In this document: piece after piece, positions 7,822-40,724 of the stretch
Layout: each line of letters starts with the position of its first letter
How positions within the stretch are numbered: position 1 is the stretch's first letter
NCBI GenBank assembly: GCA_016748015.1
Contig: JAAOMT010000694.1
Location: 248,001-312,000, forward strand
Direction of reading: 5' to 3'
Length of the DNA stretch: 64,000 nt
Source: Geosiphon pyriformis
Taxonomy: Eukaryota; Glomeromycota; Glomeromycetes; Archaeosporales; Geosiphonaceae
Program-made: the position numbers and the translations under genes
Notes under the pieces: model-generated
Databases searched by the model: none
Seen by the model: only the letters and a program-made list of their open reading frames with translations
What the model was told of the DNA's origin: nothing

Positions 7822-8504
7822 ATATATTTGTTAATATAGTTTTATAATGTTGTTTTAATTAGTTAAATGGCTAATTACATATAATAAGTGTATAAATTAT
7901 GTCTAATTTAAAATTTTAAATAGTTGTATTATATTATATAATAATTAAATTTTATTTATAAAAAAAAATAAAAATAAAAAATAATTTAATATATTAAATA
8001 ACATAGTTAAATATTAATTTAAATTAGTTTTAATAAATATATTGTTGTTATTGTCTAAAACAAAAAAAAACCACAAAAAAAACCAATTTTAAAACAATTT
8101 TTAAAATAATTAACTTTAGTATTTTTGAAAAAAATTACTTTTGGTTATTTTGGTTCTTTTGGCTATTTAAACAATAATTAAAAAAATTAAAACAAAAACA
8201 ATACAATATTAAACTTATTTTTAATAATTACTTTTCAAAAAACTTAAAAGAAAAAAAACTTTTAATTAAAAACAAAAAAATGCTTTTTTAATAACCAAAA
8301 CTGAATATTAAAAAGTGTTTTAACAAAATACTGTTTGAATGCTTTTATAATTAAATATTAAAGACCAAAAAAAATAAGAGCCGTTTTTTGCTTTGGTTGT
8401 AATTATAAAATTGCAAAAGAAAAAAGTAATTTTTGTAATAAATTTTTTTTTAAATTTATTGTTTTGAAAAATGACAATTATTTGATTTTTTTAGGCCACA
8501 TATA
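7822..8504. other. AT-rich stretch without a recognisable gene
   Basis: Very AT-rich with long A and T runs and no open frame that looks coding. It may be old transposon sequence, but I cannot tie it to any family in the window. Confidence 0.5.
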
Positions 8505-8602
8505 CAGGGGGGTATAAAAAGTATTGGACACTTTTATAATATGTTATATAAAAGAACTAACTTATGAATCGTTAATTTTTTTTTATTATATTAAAATACA
8601 TG

Positions 8603-8743
8603 TTAGTATTTTGTTTGACCCCCATTTGCTTCAAGAATAGCTTGAACTCGACGTGGCATAGACTTGATCAAATTACGATAGTAATTTACAGGTATCGCAT
8701 CCCATTCTTCCTTAACCCACTGTTCCAATTGTACAATATTTGA
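8603..8743 (-). pseudogene. Tc1-like transposase, C-terminal part after the gap
   Basis: On the minus strand the frame reads ...QWVKEEWDAIPVNYYRNLI, then KSMPRRVQAILEANGG and QTKY before the stop. This is the characteristic end of Tc1 transposases (Trp-x2-Ile-Pro, Leu-Ile-x-Ser-Met-Pro-Arg-Arg, Asn-Gly-Gly). It is in a different nominal frame from the N-terminal part because the N run has an arbitrary length. The pieces together imply a normal transposase missing only its unsequenced centre. Confidence 0.85.
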
Positions 8744-8763
8744 NNNNNNNNNNNNNNNNNNNN
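8744..8763. other. assembly gap of 20 N
   Basis: Run of 20 N inside the mariner transposase. Its length is probably nominal. A gap inside a repeated element is the usual place for contigs to break. Confidence 0.99.
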
Positions 8764-9158
8764 TTTTCTTTATTTGATTTGGAAATTAATGGCTTGAGAC
8801 GAGGAATGCACGAGCGAAGTCCTTCTTGAGCTAATCCATTTCGAATAGTTTGTATAGAAATAGATTTGTTGGTATCTTTAATAAAATTCAATCGTATTTG
8901 AGAAAGAGTTTGGCGGGGGGTTTCTTTATTCTCCATTATTGAATATTTGAGTTGTTCACGTGCGCGTTTGTCAAGAATTTGTGGTCGGCCCGTTCGTTTT
9001 TTAGGAAGTTTTTTTAGCTCGTATGACTTCCATACACGTATTACAGAAGAACGTGAACATCCAATAGTCGTTGAAATCTTACTATTTGTATGTCCTAACT
9101 TTTTTGCTGAAATAATCCCTCCTTTTTGGTATTCAGAAAGTTCTTTTCTAAGACACAT
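8764..9158 (-). pseudogene. Tc1-like transposase, N-terminal part up to the gap
   Basis: Starts at ATG 9158 (MCLRKELSEYQKG...). About 130 residues are visible, with two helix-turn-helix-like segments: residues ~15-45 (ISAKKLGHTNSKISTTIGCS) and, after a GRPQILDKRAREQL linker, residues ~75-115. This is the bipartite paired-like DNA-binding domain of Tc1/Tc3 transposases. No stop or frameshift is seen before the N run. The DDE catalytic domain should follow but falls in the unsequenced gap, so completeness cannot be judged; it is called pseudogene only because it is incomplete as assembled. Confidence 0.85.
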
Positions 9159-9604
9159 TTGATGCGGTAAATTTTTTCACGACAAGAATGTTTGATATTT
9201 TATAAATACGCGTATGATCCACTGTTGTGTTTTACAAGGACGCGATTTATGTTGATTTGTAGATTATAACTATAAGTAATTATAAAAAAAATTATGGCTT
9301 AAATTGGTAATGGTATTACTATATATAGCCTTTTTTATATATTATATTAAGTGTCCAATACTTTTTATACCCCCCTGTATTAATAAATCTTTGCTTTTGT
9401 TCAATGTTTAATGATGAAAGAACCAAAAATCTGGAAATCTTAAAGAAATGAGATTTTCATCAATTCTTTTTAATTTGCAGAGGCAATTTAAGCACATTTG
9501 CTTTGTATTGAAAATTTTTTGATCAAGTTAATAAAGTGAAATTGGTCTTTTTAACAGGAATTAAAATATTAACATGATATTTGCTATTGCATTTACCATT
9601 TTTT

Positions 9605-11768
9605 TCAGGACACCTGAGCAATCTCTCGAGCTTGTGCAAAAAATAATCTCGCTTCATGTTCTGTTTGATTGGCAATACAGTAGGAATTTCCTAAAAGATA
9701 ATAATTTTAAAAATGATTCGAGCCAGAAGACGGTTATCATGAACGAGTAACTTTGTTGAGATACCTCTGGGTACGCAAAATTGACCACCAATGGGTATTC
9801 GGAATTTTGATTTGTGTATAGTTATTGTAACCATTCCTTTAATTACATAGAAGGTCTTCCATATTCAAAACAAATGATATTAATTGCCATTAAATTATAT
9901 TTAGTAACAAACAAACAATCTTATTTACTTTGGGAAAACCCTTACCATTATACTGTCCTTGGTGTTTTTAGTTGGCTTTTCTGTTCCTTTGGGCAAGAAA
10001 ATGATACCAGTCGATAGAAATTCGCCTTCAGAAAATGATTTTTGGAACTTGTAATCATGGCTGTTGATATATTTAGGCTTTAACATTGAGGGCATAACGA
10101 CAACCTCTATGATTCAAATAAGTTTGAGTTTGAGTTTTTCCACATAAGAGATGAGAATGCAATTTTTTAACTCACGTCGAATCTCCTCGGAGCCATCGGT
10201 ACCCCATTCTACGACTTGAGCTTCACCATTTGTTTCTTCTTCAACAAAGCCATCTTCCTCTTCTTTTCGACGTTTTTGCGACTTTTTTTCAGATGTCCCA
10301 CGTCTTCTTTTGTGATAAAATTCAGTATTGTGGTTTTCATCATCCGAGAATCGGATCACCTCTTTGATAACAGGAACTGGAGTTGATCCTATTTTCGGAC
10401 ATTGGAAGAGAAACCCAAAACAAGAAGAGATTAATAGGAGAAATGGTTGACGGAATGATTGAACTTCAGATGACTAACCTTCCACCGGCCGTCCATATAC
10501 AACTTTCTCATTTCGCCAGAATTTCAAGGGCTTTATGCGGTTACGTGTACCTCTGCGTACTTTTCAGCAAATTGAAAAAACACATGAAACAAAACCCATA
10601 ATTACATTACAGAATTAATAAAATTGAACGTACATCCTTCCCCAGTATCATCCTTTGAAGCAGCGGCTTTTTTCTTATTCGTTGCTTTAGGTGGATTAAT
10701 CTTTTTTTTAGGTTTAATAAGCTGTATATTTTTGTCCTTAGGACCACTCTCTTCAATTTCTTGTTGGTAATCTTCATTATTATTTATTCCCAAATTAAAA
10801 GATTTATCATTTCCATCAGCTTCCGACACAGTTTCAGGTTTTTCGTCAGCGGTTTTTCTGGGTGAAAGTTTGGTAACCGCGGGAACAATAAATTCTTCCT
10901 CTTCTTCTTCTTCTTCTTCTTCTTCTTCTTCTTCTTCTTCTTCCATGTAGTCATTGGAACATAATTTGTCGACTTCTTCAAATCGATTATCATCTTTGAA
11001 TAAATAGGATTTTTGTTTTAGATTATGTGGTACAAATTCTCCAAATTTTAGTATGGAAGATTCATGTGCAGTCAAGAGGAAAAGTGAGCAAAATTCCCTG
11101 CCTTCCATTACAATTTCCATTGATATCTCCTCACTAATAGTAGTCTCGTTTCTAATAAAAGACGCCTCTTGTTGCGACTCACTATTGGGTTGTTCTTGAG
11201 CCGGCTGCAATTTGGCCACATTAAAGAAGTCGTCAATATCTTGAAGACCATCCGAGTCATTTTTAACTTTCCCTTTTACGGTCAAGCCCGTTTTTCTAGA
11301 AAAAATGTCAAATAAGAAAGTCTGAAAACTATTTTTCGAGGCAGGATTTCCCTAGGCTTTGAAAATCCTCTACCTTCCACGAACCCCAATTTCTGCAATA
11401 AATTTGTTGGCTCTCTTGGTTTTAAGCTTATTAAAATTGCTGGCGTGTATCATTGTTTCCTCGCTAGAATTGGTTTCATTTCTATCGGGAGACCCTCCTT
11501 GTTGTGATCCAACGTTGGAAGATTCTCGTCGTGACTGCGAATCCACCCCATTAAAGAAGTCGTCAATGTCTTCAAGGCCATCTATATCTTTTTTAACGTT
11601 CTCCTTAACAGTTATGCCGGTTTTTCTAGAAGCGGGTAAAGTTAGAATTGGGAACTATTTTTATGAACAAGTATTAAATTTTGATCGAATTCACCTTCCA
11701 CGAACCCCAATTTCTTCAGTAAACTTGTTCACCCTTTTAGTTTTGCGTGAAATATCGTCACTGGGCAT
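9605..11768 (-). CDS. MIF2: inner kinetochore protein CENP-C / Mif2, with duplicated N-terminal motif
   Basis: Eight exons, all phase-consistent: 11768-11695, 11625-11374, 11295-10634, 10559-10479, 10388-10176, 10106-9946, 9855-9765, 9690-9605, giving 539 aa from ATG 11768 (MPSDDISRKTKRVNKF). Mif2/CENP-C binds CENP-A nucleosomes and recruits the outer kinetochore (Mis12/MIND). Residues 11-50 carry the N-terminal Mif2 motif (GVRGRKTG...DGLEDIDDFFN) and residues 95-134 repeat it. Next come an acidic linker with ~18 consecutive Glu and a basic stretch. The CENP-C motif is at ~330-356 (RRGTRNRIKPLKFWRNEKVV, then YGRPVE). The C-terminal cupin dimerisation domain is at ~428-539 (PKGTEKPTKN, FYVIKGMVTITI, GGQFCVPRG, ARLFFAQ). 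The domain signatures leave little doubt. The duplicated front is the oddity; see Findings. Confidence 0.95.
10893..10945. repeat. coding TTC/GAA microsatellite (poly-Glu in CENP-C)
   Basis: Nearly pure (TTC)n on the plus strand, read as GAA codons on the minus strand and giving about 18 Glu in exon 3 of CENP-C. Confidence 0.95.
11217..11738 (-). repeat. 84-codon tandem duplication in CENP-C, intron included
   Basis: The segment NKF..EIGVRGR / intron / KTG(I/L)TVK...DGL.DIDDFFN occurs twice. The introns (11694-11626, 69 bp; 11373-11296, 78 bp) split the same Arg codon (GGAAG|GT ... CTAG|AAAAAC). The exon between them is 252 bp, exactly 84 codons. Similarity continues past the motif (SQQ, RNET and SEE in both copies). 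Confidence 0.9.
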
Positions 11769-12739: not shown

Positions 12740-14046
12740 ATGACTTCCGACCCAGCAGCACGACCGCTCTCAAAACATTCACAGGATCATTTTACTTATT
12801 CATGGCCTATACGCAGCTTTAATGAACTTGTAAATTTTTATCCAAACGGAGGCTTTGTTCTCAGTGAACGTTTTTGGTCACCACGGCCTCCTTATAACAA
12901 CGATTCAACCACAAAAAACAAAGATTATCCATATTTATGGCGTATCAAATTATATCCGAATGGAGTAAACGATGCAGCAAAAAATCATATCTCCTTATAT
13001 CTTGTAGCAATTCAAACACCCTATGAGAAACAAAATAACATTACATTCCGAGATAAAATGTTTCGATTAGAGGTCTTTCGACTCAACCCTGATCCTTCAT
13101 CTTCATCTTCATCTGCAACTCCCATTTTAATTCGCAATGAAACTTTTACAATGAAATTTGAATTTGAAGGGCTGGATGATTTCGGCCGTCACCGATTTTG
13201 CTCTTTCGATAATTTATTTCCAGGTGGTGATTCATCGACAGATGTGGATTTATTAATAAGAGTGAAAATCTTTAATAACGCAACACCGACGGTTGAAGAG
13301 CCCGTGGAACTGATTGAATCGGAATTTCCTTCTTTCAAACAACATTTGGATGATGGTCGATTCAGTGATATAGAGTTCACGTTCGATTGTGGTTCCAGAA
13401 TCAAAGCACATCGAATAATACTTGCCACAAGATCATCATATTTCGAAAAATTACTTGGAGATAAATGGCGAGAAGGACAGGTATGTTCTCACGAATCGTT
13501 ATATGAAAAAGTTCCATTACAAAAATTTCCAAAAAATGTAATTAAATTCAATCAGTTTTGACTTGTGATGCCTTAGATGAAAACAATCCCAATCAAACAT
13601 ATGGAATACACCACATTTCGATCCATATTATATTATTTATATACTGGAAAACTTGACGAAGGATTGGAGTTTGACGTGTTAAAAGATGTCTATTCAAAAG
13701 CTGATATGTTGAATTTAGAAAAATTGGAAGAGATTGTTGCGGATAGAATTGCTGACATGGTGGACCTAGATAATTGGGATGAGATATTAATGTTGGCATG
13801 GGAAGTCGGTGATACACATCTAAAAGAGGCTGCACTCAATTATGCTGTATCAAAATGGACCGAGATAAGAGATGGGGAAAATATGAAACGTGTAATGGGT
13901 TGTGGTAAGTCTCCTGGATTTTTACCCAAAGCTGTGGTTTTGCTGTCCATTTTTCCTGATTTCTCTTTAAATATTTATTTATAGGGAATATGGATTGGGT
14001 CGAGGAATTGATGTCTGCAGTGTTTCGAAATAAATTTTATTCATGA
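12740..14046 (+). CDS. MATH-BTB (POZ) domain protein
   Basis: Exons 12740-13480, 13577-13904 and 13985-14046 join in consistent phase (introns GTATGT...TTAG and GTAAGT...ATAG), giving 376 aa. Residues ~17-170 look like a MATH domain (HFTYSWPI near its start, WRIKLYPNG, YLVAIQTPY, FDNLFPGG). Residues ~195-300 are a BTB domain (LDDGRFSDIEFTFDCGSRIK, AHRIILATRSSYFEKLL, then FRSILYYLYTGKL in exon 2). A helical BACK-like tail follows. Such proteins are usually substrate adaptors for Cullin-3 ubiquitin ligases, but that role here is family-level inference. Expanded BTB families are common in arbuscular mycorrhizal fungi. The start at 12740 is the first ATG of the frame; an intron acceptor-like CACAG at 12783 leaves room for another model. 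Confidence 0.85.
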
Positions 14047-20475: not shown

Positions 20476-22067
20476 ATGTTGATAAGACGAAATCTGAGTA
20501 CTTGTTCCCGTTTCCCACGTCAAGCTCAACGACTTGTTTTACGCTCAACGACCGTAGCTCACTCTGTCTCACCTTTGTCTGTATCAGTTCGTCAAGTTCG
20601 TCAAAGACCTACCAATTGTCGTTTCAACTCTTCCTCCTCGAAACCAGCTGTCGACAACGATTCTAACTCTAATACGAATCGAAAATATAAACTGAATCGT
20701 TATTTGGGTATGGCAGCACTCGCTAGCATCAGTGCTTCGATATACTTTTATTTATTAGCAAAAGGAGATAAGGATCTCGAGCCCGAAAAAAAGCAATTAA
20801 TTTTATCCCCGGCTGAAGCTACTGCTAAATTACGTGAAAATCAACTCACCACTCTTCTTAAAAACAAATCCAATAATGGTCTTGTTTGGCGGTATGACAC
20901 AAATCAGGTCGCGTCAAACGATCCGATCGAAGATGCAAAATCTGAAATGATTTTTAAATCAAAAGACGGTGATAAGTTATTTTTTGCTGTATTTGATGGA
21001 CACGGTGGCTGGAATTGCTCTCGATATTTGAGCTCTCACCTGATCGCTTTTGTTAAAAAACATTTGGACCAAGCATATCAATCTGTCGCCGGTCAAGATC
21101 AAAAAAACGATGATTCTCGACAGCAACTAGTTACCAACACAATTCAGAACGCTTTTTTAAGTTTAGATTATGAAATCGTTTTTCGTGCAATAGCCAGACT
21201 TTTGGATGCACTTAAAGATGATAAGACACCCGCAACTGTTGAAGAAAGTGTGGTTACCGCGCTCGCTGGTTCTTGTGCTATAATGGCTTACATTGATGCA
21301 GCAAAAAAAGATTTATATGTTGCATCTACAGGTGATTCTAGAGCTATTATAGGTATTAAAGACCCTGTAACTGGTGACTGGAAAGCATTACCTTTGAGTG
21401 AAGATCAAACAGGACGAAATGAAAATGAAGTTAAAAGATTACAAACTGAACACCCAGATGAAGGGAATATCATTTCTCACGGAAGAGTGTTTGGTGGTTT
21501 AGAACCAACTCGCGCATTTGGAGACGCAAGGTATTTAAAAATCTTTCCTGGGTTTTTTTTGGGGGATTCAAAATTTAACCAGATTTTTCTTACGGAATTA
21601 GATACAAATGGGATAAAATTACTCACGATCGGATACATGAAAAATTATTTGACGAAAAACGTAATATTCCAGGTGGTGAACGCAACAAGACACCACCTTA
21701 TGTCACGGCTAGGCCAGAAGTGGTTTACCACAAAATCGATAAGAATGACAAGTTTTTGGTGTTAGCAACTGATGGACTTTGGGATAAGTTGAGTAATGAT
21801 GAAGTAGCGAAGCTTGTTGGAGGTTTTCTTGATGGACGCCCAGTTGAGCAGAAAATCCAATCTAATGAACAAGAAAATGTATCTAAACCCAAAAAATTCG
21901 CCTATGTTGATGAAAATGCCTCAACACATTTAATACGGAATGCACTGGGAGGAGCAGCTCAAGAACTGTTGTGTTCCCTTTTATCTTTGCCCTCACCAAT
22001 GGCGAGAAGGTTCCGAGACGATATAACCGTGACTGTTGTGTTCTTTAGCGATAGCGAACCATCCTAG
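20476..22067 (+). CDS. PTC5: mitochondrial PP2C-type protein phosphatase (pyruvate dehydrogenase phosphatase-like)
   Basis: Exons 20476-21530 and 21602-22067 join in phase 2 (donor GTATTT, acceptor TTAG), giving 506 aa. ATG 20476 is preferred because the protein then begins MLIRRNLSTCSRFPRQ, an arginine-rich, acid-free mitochondrial presequence. It is followed at ~65-85 by a hydrophobic segment (GMAALASISASIYFYLLA). PP2C metal-binding and catalytic motifs are visible: FAVFDGHGGW (~170-179), TGDSRAIIG, GGLEPTRAFGDARYKW across the intron, LATDGLWDKLS and RDDITVTVV. Order and spacing fit the Ptc5/PDP branch, which dephosphorylates the E1-alpha subunit of pyruvate dehydrogenase in the mitochondrion. 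Substrate assignment is by family, and Ptc7 or another mitochondrial PP2C remains possible. Confidence 0.85.
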
Positions 22068-33225: not shown

Positions 33226-34282
33226 GATTTCCTTAAGATTTGGCTGGCTCCACAATTCGCTTTGGTCTATCACGCAAAAGGTTGTCTTTCACAATAAGAT
33301 CAAGACTATTTAATAAAATGAATCGCGTTCTTAAAAATTCTTGCTTTTTCCTTGGGGTGGAAGGCCTGTATCATGAAAAACACATTGGAATTGACACGTT
33401 TAAAAAGAAGCTTTACAAGTCCAACTTCTGTTGAACCAACTTCTATATTTTAATCGCGAATGACCTTTCGGTCATGTGATAAATCATGACTCAGGGACGC
33501 ACTAATCCAAAAATAGTGAAAGAATATTCTCCAAAGAAAAGCTTGTTTTGTATAATATATTTTACATTTTATGCATTATTTATTTGATATTATTACTCAA
33601 ATTGACACATAATATTATTTTTAACCAACTCATTAATTGAATTTTAAAAATTATATGCTAATATTATATAATTAAATCAACAAAAATTATTATTATCTTA
33701 AAAACACAAAGTTTTATGTTTTTTTTGTTATTATTTTAAATTTGTTTTTTAAAATTAAATATTTAAACAGCATATATTTTTGAATTAAAATCTTAAAAAA
33801 TTTTATTAAATATAATTAATTATTAAACAATTAAATTAAATATTATATAAATTTAATTTTAAATATTTATAATATATAATTATTTAAAATAAAATATTTT
33901 TTTGTTTTAATAATTAATGTTCTAATTTAAATAATATTGTATAAAATTTATTCTTATAAAAAATATAATTAATTGTTTTATTGTTATTATTATTATTATT
34001 ATTAAAATGTTTAATAAATATTATTTTAAATTGTTATTATTTTTTAAAATTTAAAATTTGTTTTATATATTAATTTTAAATTTTTTTTATAATTTTATAA
34101 TTTTAATTAAAACAAAAAAAAACTTCTTTCTCTCATTTATCCCAAATTCTCAAAAAAGAGCCAAAATATTTTTTAAAGAAGTTTTTTCTGTTTTTATCAT
34201 TCAGTGCACTAATTCCAAACTGTTTGTGCTTGATTATGAAGCCACCATTGGCTCTAGTATTGCAGTTCTAAACAAGTCTATT
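33226..34282. other. AT-rich boundary between gene island and LINE
   Basis: About 33470-34130 is almost pure A/T with no genes. A short plus-strand open frame at 33240-33434 has no credible features. The last part probably holds the 5' leader of the LINE, but its exact 5' end is not visible. Confidence 0.5.
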
Positions 34283-36055
34283 ATGGAGCCTAGTTTTAAT
34301 ATTAGTGTCAAGTCTGTTGAGTCCAGAAAGAAGAGAAGAGATGGTGTTTTGGAAAATAATATTGGTAATAGAAAATTTGCTGCTGCTAAGGTATTAAGTA
34401 GTCATTTTTGGGGTTCTGCAACCAGTGATACTACTGAATCTGATAGTGTAGATATGAAGAAAGAATGTTTAGTTAAAGAAACCAGCTTTAATTATGGAGA
34501 TAGTGGAGCTTTTGCTGGTGAGAATTCAGAGCAAACACCTAAAAGTTCGAAGATTCTTACTAAGAGAGTGCTTGAAAAGCCACTAAGGAAAATTAATTTC
34601 TTGGGTGATAATATTGATAATATATTTTTGGACAAATCTGTGGTTTTCTCTCCCCTTCTAAAGAACTTGGTCAATATTTCTGTTAGGAAGTCTTTTGCTT
34701 TGGACATCAGCTTGGATAATGTTGTTGAAAAATCTGCTCTGAAAAAGCTTGTAATTGTCAGAAAATTATTTTCAAGAATCAATGGTTTTGAGAGGGCTTC
34801 TACCCTCTCAAAATTTGCTAGAATCATTAGAACAATATTTACTTCTGAATCAAGTTTGGTGCAGGCTTCTAAAAAGGCTGAAGAGGCAAAGATCTTGGTA
34901 AACTCTGATTTCAAAAAATCATCTAGGTGTTTAGATCAGGCTGTGGTATTAAAAGAAATTCCTGTTAGAACATTAACTGAGACTGTGTGTGCTGTGCTAT
35001 CTAGTTTTGGTGTGGTGGTGTCAATCAAAATACAGTTGGTGGGTTTGTGGCAGAAGGCTATAGTTGAATTTAGTAAGGATGAACAGACTGATTTAATTAC
35101 AGCTTGTTGGTCTATTCTGATTGGGAAGGATGCTGTGCGTGTGGTCAGGGCTAATCAAAACAAGAAATTGTGGGACACAAGAGATCAACATAGGGCTTTG
35201 CTCTATACTCTGCCAATGAAAATAACTGCTCATAACATCTGAGATTATATTGGCTTTGTGGGTGAAAAAACATATATGATAGATCATCATCCTGTTATAT
35301 ATGCTCGGGCCAGATGCGCTGTTGTTTGTTTTGAGTCAGCCGATTCCTTGAATGCTGTCATGGAAACTACTCTAATTTTAAGGGGTGTGAATATGCATTG
35401 GTCTCCTTTGGGTTTTTTTAAATATGCTGAGTGTGGGAAATTGGGTTATACATCTTTGGGCTGTGCTGTAAATGGGAATCTCTCTTCTAAGAAACCTTTT
35501 TGCAGACTTTTCTCAGACATAGATAAATGCAGATTGGCAATCATCTATACCAAGTGTTCAGCTCTGATTGCTTGTTCTATTGCTTTTGATGGAGTTTCTT
35601 GGGCAAAAATTGCTGGTGGAAATATTTTTCCCCCTTTTTTTGTGCAGAAAGTGTCAGTCATTTCTGGCTCCTTTTCAGAAATGAAACCTACTCTCCCTGA
35701 TATGAGTGATGTTGAAAAAAGATTTGCTGTTTTGGAAAGCAGTCTTGGGACAAATTAGTGAGTTGGCTAAGAGGTTGGACTTATTTATGTCAGCAGTTTC
35801 CCAACCTAGCCTGGATGTCAGCTGCTGGTAATTTCTCCATTACAGGATTGGGTGGGTAATGTAGTGATAAGAGAGAGTTTAAGTAAAGTTACAAGTAGTG
35901 AAACTGCTATGACTTTGGAATTTTCTGCTTCTCCTAAAGTAAAAAGATTGGAAAACATATTGGAAGGACTTTCTGCTTCAGTTTTAAGTCTTACAACAAA
36001 GTTTAATAGTTCAATTTTGGCTGGCAGTGCATTTTTCAAACCTTCTTCTCAATGA
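34283..36055 (+). pseudogene. LINE ORF1 (nucleic-acid-binding gag-like protein), broken
   Basis: Starts at ATG 34283 (MEPSFNISVKSVESRKKRRD). It reads to a TGA at 35240-35242, continues in the same frame from 35243 to 35758 (YIGFVGEKTYMIDHHPVIYA, RARCAVVCFESADSLNAVME), needs a one-base shift near 35750 (ISELAKRLDLFMSAV), and after a further stop and frame change ends KVKRLENILEGLSASVLSL ... FKPSSQ at TGA 36053-36055. A CGKLGYTSLGC segment (~35435-35465) is the likely zinc-knuckle site. Roles by family: RNA binding and ribonucleoprotein formation. It is inactive as it stands. Confidence 0.8.
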
Positions 36056-39000: not shown

Positions 39001-40724
39001 CCAATAAGGTTGCATACCAGTCCAGTCAATAACTTTTTGGCAGGTGTTATTAGAATTTTTATGGATTATAACATGTCTCTTGACAATTTTTCTGTTTCTG
39101 CATTCCACTTTTCTGGTAGAACATCAATATCTACAGTCTTAGGAGCTTTTTTGTTTTATAATGTTTTTTCTTCTCTCAAAAAGTTTGGGGTCATCTTTGC
39201 CAAGCAGTTATATATCAAAAAAGGTTTGATTTTCGATTGGAAACCTTTTGTCATTGGAAAAAACTTGATCTAAGGGGCTCTGTCTCTCTTTGGTTCACTT
39301 TGGTTTGTGACTTTTTGGTTCGACCTTCTATTTCTAATGATTTACATGTTGAAGATTTACAGGCCATGGATGTCTGCAGTTCAGGTGCAGTTTCCAGATT
39401 GGGCCAATGTCTCTCTTCTGTAAATCTGAGAGTTGTTAATGTTTACACTGATGGATCATTAAGAGATTTGGGTTCATGTGAAATGAAGTGTGGTACTGCT
39501 GCTTACTTCTCGGATTTGAATCAAAGTATTGGTGCTAAGGTTGGTAAATTGGTATCTTCAACTATGGTAGAACTGTAGGCAATTGCTTTGACTTTGGAGT
39601 GTATTCTCTCTGCCAGTTTAGTGGTGGTTTATTCAGACAGTTAGGCTGCCTTAGATGCATGTGTAGCTGAATTTGCTCTGGTGTCTCTGAATTTCTGCAA
39701 CTACTACTGGATAAAGCAATGTGGCATTATCAATTTAATTAGGAGAAAGTGGCTAGATGTTTCTTGGCATAAGGTAAAAGAACATTTGGGTATTGTAAAT
39801 AATAAGTGTGTTGATAAGTTAGCCAGTCTGGCTGCGAACTCTTCTTTGGCACTTTCTGTTTTGGTTATGGAGAGATTTATCAAGACTGGTAAAGTGGCAG
39901 TGTTTAGAAACATTTGTCATTTTGCCCACAAGATTTTCAGGTCTGTTAATTATGCTTGTTGGGAGGTTGGTCTTGGTTTCGATGTTATTGATGATAGTTT
40001 ACTTAGTGATGTGAACTGGTTTTGTATTGCTTCAGTATGGCACCCTGATTTTCATATGGCAACCAGCTTTACCAGTAAATTTATGGCTAGTTTGCACTCT
40101 TATTTTTTAAAGGCCTTCTACTGCTATCTTCCAGTTACTGTACAGAAGCATTTGTATAGTAAGATCTACCTGAGTGTCTCGTGTCTGCACTGTGGTGAAG
40201 TGGAAAGTTCTGACCACTCTTTTGTTTGTATGTTTGACTCTGATGTTCGTAAAAGTATTCTCAGATTTCATCTGGCCAAGTGGCATTGTGTTTCTGAATT
40301 GGGCTTGCATTTATCTCATGTCTCACAGATGCTCTCTCTGTGCACATCTGATGATGTGTTGTATACCACTGTGAGTAAAGATTTTGTGTTCAAAGATTGG
40401 GTTCAGAAAGCTTTGTTCATTCTGGGTGATGCCAAGATTGCAGAAAAGTTTATTGTTGATTTTGTTTATGAATTGAGTGCTGCTCACCACATGGATATTT
40501 GGTTGGTTAGAGCTAAATATAGGGCTTTGATAGAAAAAGACGGTTTAATTCCACTTGATGGTTCTGTGTATCCTGTGACTTGTGGTTTGTCATGTATGTT
40601 TTTTGCTGAAGTGATTAGGTTGCTTGGGATTGCTGAGACAGTTGGTGTCTGTTTTGGTTTTTATAAACATTGCTGCTTTTCTTCTGGCATAGATAGTATG
40701 GTCTCTGTTCTAATAGATTCATAG
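36052..40724 (+). pseudogene. LINE ORF2 (endonuclease, reverse transcriptase, RNase H), many stops
   Basis: Begins at ATG 36052, overlapping the ORF1 stop by ATGA. The endonuclease spans about 36060-36720: MCNIRGLNN, ETKLRGK, ILGGDFNEDG, DTNHKTVSASV (the Ser-Asp-His box degraded to Thr-Asn-His). Reverse transcriptase spans about 37540-38720: DGKAAGLSGISNELWKH, PIALIETVHKILSKLLSDRI, LVLQDMRKAYNSV and the catalytic FVDDTIW at about 38350. RNase H lies at about 39420-39850 (VYTDGS, MVEL, VVYSDS, KVKEHLGIVNNKCVDKLAS), followed by a Cys/His motif (CLHCGEVESSDHSFVC) at about 40185. Around 18 in-frame stops interrupt an otherwise readable frame. Confidence 0.87.

Follow-up and report, generated by a model that had tools for sequence, protein, structure and literature searches.

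A predicted CENP-C of Geosiphon pyriformis with a tandemly repeated Mis12-docking motif

We analyzed a 64,000-nt stretch of the G. pyriformis genome (called the window below; G+C content, 28.9%) and found in it a predicted CENP-C/Mif2 gene that encodes two tandem copies of the N-terminal motif with which fungal CENP-C docks the Mis12/MIND complex. We lean toward a model in which one CENP-C molecule with this duplicated module is able to carry two Mis12 complexes. The two motif copies are read directly from the predicted protein, and double occupancy is what we infer from them.

The predicted CENP-C gene and its two motif copies

The gene occupies positions 11768 to 9605 on the minus strand of the window, as do all of its features given below, and is predicted to consist of 8 exons encoding a complete protein of 539 amino acids. 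The exon model was assembled manually, guided by open frames and splice signals, and the join between exons 3 and 4 was the single solution that emerged from a scan. A single open frame runs across all 8 exons, and each of the seven predicted introns, which range from 69 to 90 nt, starts with GT and ends with AG. The first-pass annotation of this DNA had called the product CENP-C, an assignment borne out by the presence of the Mif2_N domain, the CENP-C motif, and the cupin. Mif2_N (PF15624) was found in two stretches of the protein, with a Pfam score of 68.9 bits against a cut-off of 23.5, and the CENP-C_C cupin (PF11699) was found at residues 446 to 531, with 101.5 bits against a cut-off of 29. 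Among PDB chains, the C terminus matched the cupin-containing proteins Cnp3 (6o2d_A; E = 1.1e-19) and Mif2 (2vpv; E = 5.3e-12). Judged by this architecture, the gene is a complete CENP-C.

The three conserved parts follow one another along the predicted chain. Exon 1 (11695-11768) opens with the ATG at 11768, encodes residues 1 to 25, which comprise an N-terminal extension and the beginning of motif copy 1, and ends at a GT donor in phase 2. Intron 1 (69 nt; 11626-11694) lies inside an Arg codon of this copy. Exon 2 (252 nt, or 84 codons; 11374-11625), which is in phase 2 at both ends, encodes the remainder of copy 1, a linker, and the start of copy 2; intron 2 (78 nt; 11296-11373) then falls inside the equivalent Arg codon. 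Exon 3 (10634-11295) completes copy 2 and continues into a second linker, in which a run of GAA and GAG codons (10893-10943) specifies 17 consecutive Glu residues (227 to 243); this tract may vary in length between strains. Exon 4 (10479-10559) carries the CENP-C motif, RRGTRNRIKPLKFWRNEKVVY, which matches the short CENP-C motif chains 6qld_C (E = 0.00099), 7bxt_K (E = 0.014), and 4x23_V (E = 0.019), as well as a stretch inside 7on1_C, and is expected to bind the CENP-A nucleosome. Exon 5 (10176-10388) encodes an acidic and basic region preceding the cupin. The cupin itself is encoded within 9605-10106 by exons 6 to 8 (10106-9946, 9855-9765, and 9690-9605), which are separated by two introns and end with the stop codon at 9605; by homology, it is expected to mediate dimerization, and the protein is expected to localize to the centromere.

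Two copies of the Mif2 N-terminal motif (GVRGRKTG...DIDDFF) had been proposed for this chain, and both are present. Copy 1 spans residues 21 to 49 (11553-11708, with intron 1 inside) and copy 2 spans residues 105 to 133 (11223-11387, with intron 2 inside). Either copy alone exceeds the Mif2_N cut-off of 23.5 bits: residues 1 to 81 score 42.4 bits and residues 82 to 170 score 42.8 bits. In phmmer searches of the PDB, the best match of each copy was Kluyveromyces lactis Mif2 (5t59_C), aligned without gaps, with E values of 1.6e-5 for copy 1 and 2.3e-4 for copy 2; the chain in this structure comprises Mif2 residues 4 to 36 on head 1 of the Mis12 complex, as described in PMC13065467. The profile and the 5t59 match thus uphold the proposal that the repeated element is the fungal Mis12/MIND-docking motif, which is expected to be a peptide that becomes ordered only on its partner. 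Both copies retain RKTG, the V that follows three residues later, and DFF. Copy 2 is the weaker match to 5t59 (24.7 bits, versus 28.5 bits for copy 1) and also the poorer match to 7on1; of the 21 positions common to the K. lactis and Saccharomyces cerevisiae motifs, copy 1 retains 12 and copy 2 retains 10. The affinities of the two copies may therefore differ.

The surroundings of the gene were also surveyed. Directly downstream of CENP-C lies a Tc1/mariner-like element (8502-9380) whose 32-nt terminal inverted repeats, at 8502-8533 and at 9349-9380, match perfectly; it contains a transposase fragment (HTH_Tnp_Tc3_2) and the sole run of N in the window, 20 N at 8744-8763. On the other side, a MATH-BTB gene (plus strand, about 12750-14046) is divergent from CENP-C, with MATH_2 and BTB above their cut-offs in exon 1. 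This neighbor, the G+C content of the window, and the genome size of 124.7 Mb do not conflict with a placement in Glomeromycotina. Farther along the plus strand are a protein phosphatase 2C (about 20476-21765; PP2C, 85.5 bits), whose long N-terminal extension may be a mitochondrial presequence, and long open frames at 34055-35242 and 39645-40724. These two frames resemble parts of retroelements; no Pfam match was found in the first of them, most of which was scanned. The window gave no hits with Rfam or in a tRNA scan.

Origin of the repeat and constraint on its copies

An ungapped alignment of residues 1 to 84 with residues 85 to 168 confirmed that the repeat period is exactly 84 codons, as first noted, because exon 2 is 252 nt long. 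Identity over this alignment is 48/84 (57%), and in the best 30-residue stretch at offset 84 the copies agree at 24 positions. Chance similarity can be rejected, since a control in which residues 1 to 170 were shuffled 200 times and compared at offsets 20 to 139 reached 11/30 at best. In nucleotides, codons 13 to 50 are identical to their counterparts in the second copy at 93 of 114 bases. When each unit was compared with the window by tblastn, the two known places were recovered, together with one weak chance place for each (E = 7.4 and 2.8).

Similarity extends beyond the motif, as had been pointed out for SQQ..S..RNET..SEE on its 3' side, and KTKR.NKF is likewise shared on its upstream side. 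The duplicated unit therefore spans from inside exon 1 (~residue 9) to inside the present exon 2 (~residue 81). Unit 1 corresponds to residues 9 to 81 (11457-11744, containing intron 1) and unit 2 to residues 93 to 165 (11127-11423, containing intron 2). The first-pass annotation ascribed the repeat to tandem duplication of an exon plus an intron. Tandem duplication is indeed the simplest origin of the repeat, but the boundaries of the event must be redrawn: the unit takes in one intron together with portions of the two exons that flank it.

In agreement with the earlier reading, each copy is interrupted at the same place in the same Arg codon (AG^A), in phase 2, and introns 1 and 2 both have the form GT...CTAG. 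We considered homology of the two introns as proof of duplication and then dropped it. At first, 1 of 500 mononucleotide shuffles reached the score of the pair, but the similarity became unremarkable when the alignment was restricted to the intron interiors, without the splice ends, and the remaining introns were compared as well: 101 of 2,000 dinucleotide shuffles reached the interior alignment score, and among the 20 other pairings of introns in the gene, three (1-7, 3-4, and 5-7) outscored the pair 1-2. With these shuffles and introns as controls, no clear sequence similarity was seen between introns 1 and 2 beyond their ends.

Duplicated stretches may arise during assembly, and the present one comes from a draft genome (124.7 Mb in 406 contigs) with the N run described above in the same window. 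We nevertheless regard a misassembly as very improbable: 21 of the 114 aligned coding bases distinguish the copies, and introns 1 and 2 are unlike in both length and sequence. In addition, the open frame continues unbroken through the junction, and the N run lies ~840 bases beyond the end of the CENP-C gene.

The differences between the copies are unevenly distributed. Over codons 14 to 50, dS is 0.58 and dN is 0.12 by the Nei-Gojobori method, giving a dN/dS ratio of ~0.2, and synonymous and nonsynonymous changes between the copies differ with a Fisher p of 0.004 on rounded counts. The tails (codons 51 to 84) are more diverged, with a dS of 1.43 and a dN of 0.49. Residues differ at 9 of 38 positions within positions 13 to 50 and at 20 of 34 positions in the tails. 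This pattern fits an old duplication in which the docking motif has been constrained at the protein level, and such constraint between the copies would fit two functional docking sites. Constraint during part of the history of the copies would also produce a low dN/dS, and gene conversion, if confined to the motif, would likewise reduce divergence in that part.

It is conceivable that the copies have divided their labor, with one docking Mis12 and the other shifted to another partner or regulatory state, such as Mis12 in which Dsn1 is still inhibited. The residue differences just described and the weaker matches of copy 2 to 5t59 and 7on1 would be in keeping with such a shift. Yet the core residues are common to both copies and their Mif2_N scores are practically equal, and we consider this explanation unlikely. 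Two copies that each dock Mis12 remain our preferred reading of the alignment.

A further explanation places the valency of CENP-C under the control of splicing, with exon 2 as a cassette whose inclusion or omission would yield two-motif and one-motif proteins. Since exon 2 is 252 nt long and phase symmetric, a join of exon 1 to exon 3 would keep the frame and leave one complete motif. However, this join would require removal of a 399-nt intron (11694-11296), compared with the predicted 69 to 90 nt of the introns in the model, and short introns usually favor intron-defined splicing. On account of this size difference, the two-motif form of CENP-C is expected to dominate, and we consider a splicing switch very unlikely. 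Retention of intron 1 or intron 2 would lead to an immediate in-frame stop (TGA and TAG, respectively).

Proposed docking of two Mis12 complexes

In the model that we favor, the CENP-C motif and the cupin would anchor the protein at CENP-A chromatin, and the auto-inhibitory segment of Dsn1 would be released in mitosis. Each motif copy would then take head 1 of one Mis12 complex, and one CENP-C would carry two Mis12-Ndc80 modules, or up to four in a cupin dimer. Within this model, we infer that the gene is transcribed and spliced, that either copy binds Mis12, that both copies can be occupied at once, and that the protein dimerizes.

The stoichiometry of docking in other organisms bears on how a second motif would be used. 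The N terminus of yeast Mif2 binds the Mtw1-Nnf1 head (PMC7367685, PMC13065467). In the human reconstitution reported in PMC5241120, CENP-C binds a single MIS12 complex, for which CENP-T is a competitor, and a Drosophila CENP-C fragment is reported to bind Mis12 1:1 (PMC4772808). By analogy with this competition and with the 1:1 binding, one Mis12 complex probably has room for a single motif of this kind, and the most plausible partner of a second motif is therefore a further Mis12 complex. A linker of 55 residues, probably disordered, separates the two motifs; its contour length of ~21 nm when fully extended should leave enough space for two heads to bind without clash. CENP-C cupins are reported to dimerize (PMC7333888), and four Mis12 complexes per dimer would thus be the upper limit.

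The second motif could instead serve avidity or redundancy, raising the local concentration of docking sites and favoring rebinding, or acting as a backup, with one Mis12 complex held per CENP-C. Binding by the budding yeast Mif2 N terminus is modest, with a Kd of 0.98 μM even with phosphomimetic Dsn1 (PMC13065467), and a second copy would therefore help occupancy. The conservation of both motif copies is also compatible with this role. On the other hand, the 55-residue linker is long enough for two partners, and we saw nothing in the sequence that would prevent double occupancy. We regard avidity or redundancy as a possible, though not a probable, explanation and prefer the model with two Mis12 complexes per chain. 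The contribution of either motif should be viewed against findings in budding yeast, where the Mif2 N terminus is reported to be dispensable (PMC13065467) and, with Mif2 lacking its first 40 residues, 16% of beads still bound microtubules (PMC7367685); the motif is therefore not the whole interface in that organism.

The genome encodes partners that the model would require. Genes for the Mis12-complex subunits Mis12, Dsn1, and Nnf1 were found, with the Mis12-Nnf1 head encoded at C142:5468-5841 and C343:179092-179211. The Dsn1 stretch (C381:169544-169864) contains RRRSSLEMRGKRTSTIG, in which serines follow basic residues and are ten apart. This spacing may be compared with that of Ser240 and Ser250 in the auto-inhibitory segment of yeast Dsn1 (PMC13065467) and suggests that Aurora-B-controlled auto-inhibition of Dsn1 has been retained, with these serines as putative Aurora B sites. 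A divergent, CENP-A-like histone H3 (C403:420281-420852) reads AQEFVTESLELRWQSAAIMALQEA and has a loop 1 three residues longer than that of an H3 from the same genome; a longer loop 1 is expected of CENP-A. A longer loop 1 in CENP-A is mentioned in PMC9252888. This fungus thus seems to keep both CENP-A and CENP-C, in contrast to Mucor, which is reported to lack both (PMC9252888).

When the whole genome was searched with residues 1 to 170 of the protein, Mif2_N, and CENP-C_C, neither a second CENP-C nor a further Mif2_N emerged above the cut-offs. One weak match, on contig C315 (E = 2.2), was a Glu-rich stretch and was rejected. Beyond this genome, a pattern search yielded 3 stretches in a virus collection and 64 in a collection of bacteria and archaea, none of which was confirmed.

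Other proteins could share the task of recruiting Mis12, and we looked for them in the genome exon by exon, with prokaryotic genomes as controls. In this search, all five places found with CENP-T_C fell below the cut-off; one of these we take to be histone H3 and three histone H4. With the same search and the same prokaryotic controls, CENP-U and CENP-I had no match in the genome or in the controls, and CENP-Q had one weak, coiled-coil-like stretch below the cut-off. A wider model can be framed, in which valency has moved into CENP-C, other Mis12 recruiters (CENP-T and CENP-U) have been reduced or lost, and the CENP-C dimer, holding up to four Mis12 complexes, has become the principal multivalent connection from chromatin to the spindle. 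We consider this extension rather doubtful.

Comparison with known systems

The number of outer modules per inner-kinetochore molecule bears on the strength with which a chromosome grips the spindle. In the parts of the open-licence literature available to us, we found no description of a CENP-C with a repeated Mis12-docking motif or of a linker design with a duplicated docking module in CENP-C.

The closest counterpart is budding yeast Mif2 (5t59, 7on1; PF15624), in which, as here, an N-terminal motif is followed by a CENP-C motif and a cupin. The yeast chains have one matching stretch, beginning at ~residue 5, whereas the G. pyriformis protein has two copies, each after a conserved KTKR.NKF. 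The N terminus of vertebrate CENP-C also docks MIS12 head 1, with an N-terminal extension contacting MIS12 (PMC13065467); PDB searches with the G. pyriformis N terminus returned no vertebrate CENP-C chain. For vertebrate CENP-C, recruitment of just one MIS12:NDC80 complex is reported (PMC5241120), in contrast to the two motifs found here.

Tandem duplication within the CENP-C gene has a precedent in grasses, where exons 9 to 12 of Cenpc have undergone tandem exon duplications (PMC549713). According to that report, however, these affect a poorly conserved middle region with a suggested role in DNA binding and not the Mis12-docking N terminus.

The described systems that we considered multiply outer modules through additional proteins, CENP-T and CENP-U (PMC5241120, PMC13065467). 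CENP-T resembles the proposed arrangement in that one inner-kinetochore chain carries several outer modules, one MIS12:NDC80 complex and two NDC80 complexes (PMC5241120), but it is a different protein and gains its extra valency through direct Ndc80 sites, not through a repeated Mis12 motif. CENP-U/Ame1 of budding yeast is a second ligand of head 1, whose binding excludes that of Mif2 (PMC13065467); it is a separate protein, whereas in G. pyriformis the second ligand is part of the same CENP-C chain. The two-motif CENP-C would broaden the picture of kinetochores in early-diverging fungi and, if bivalent, would represent a natural experiment, with valency doubled inside one chain.
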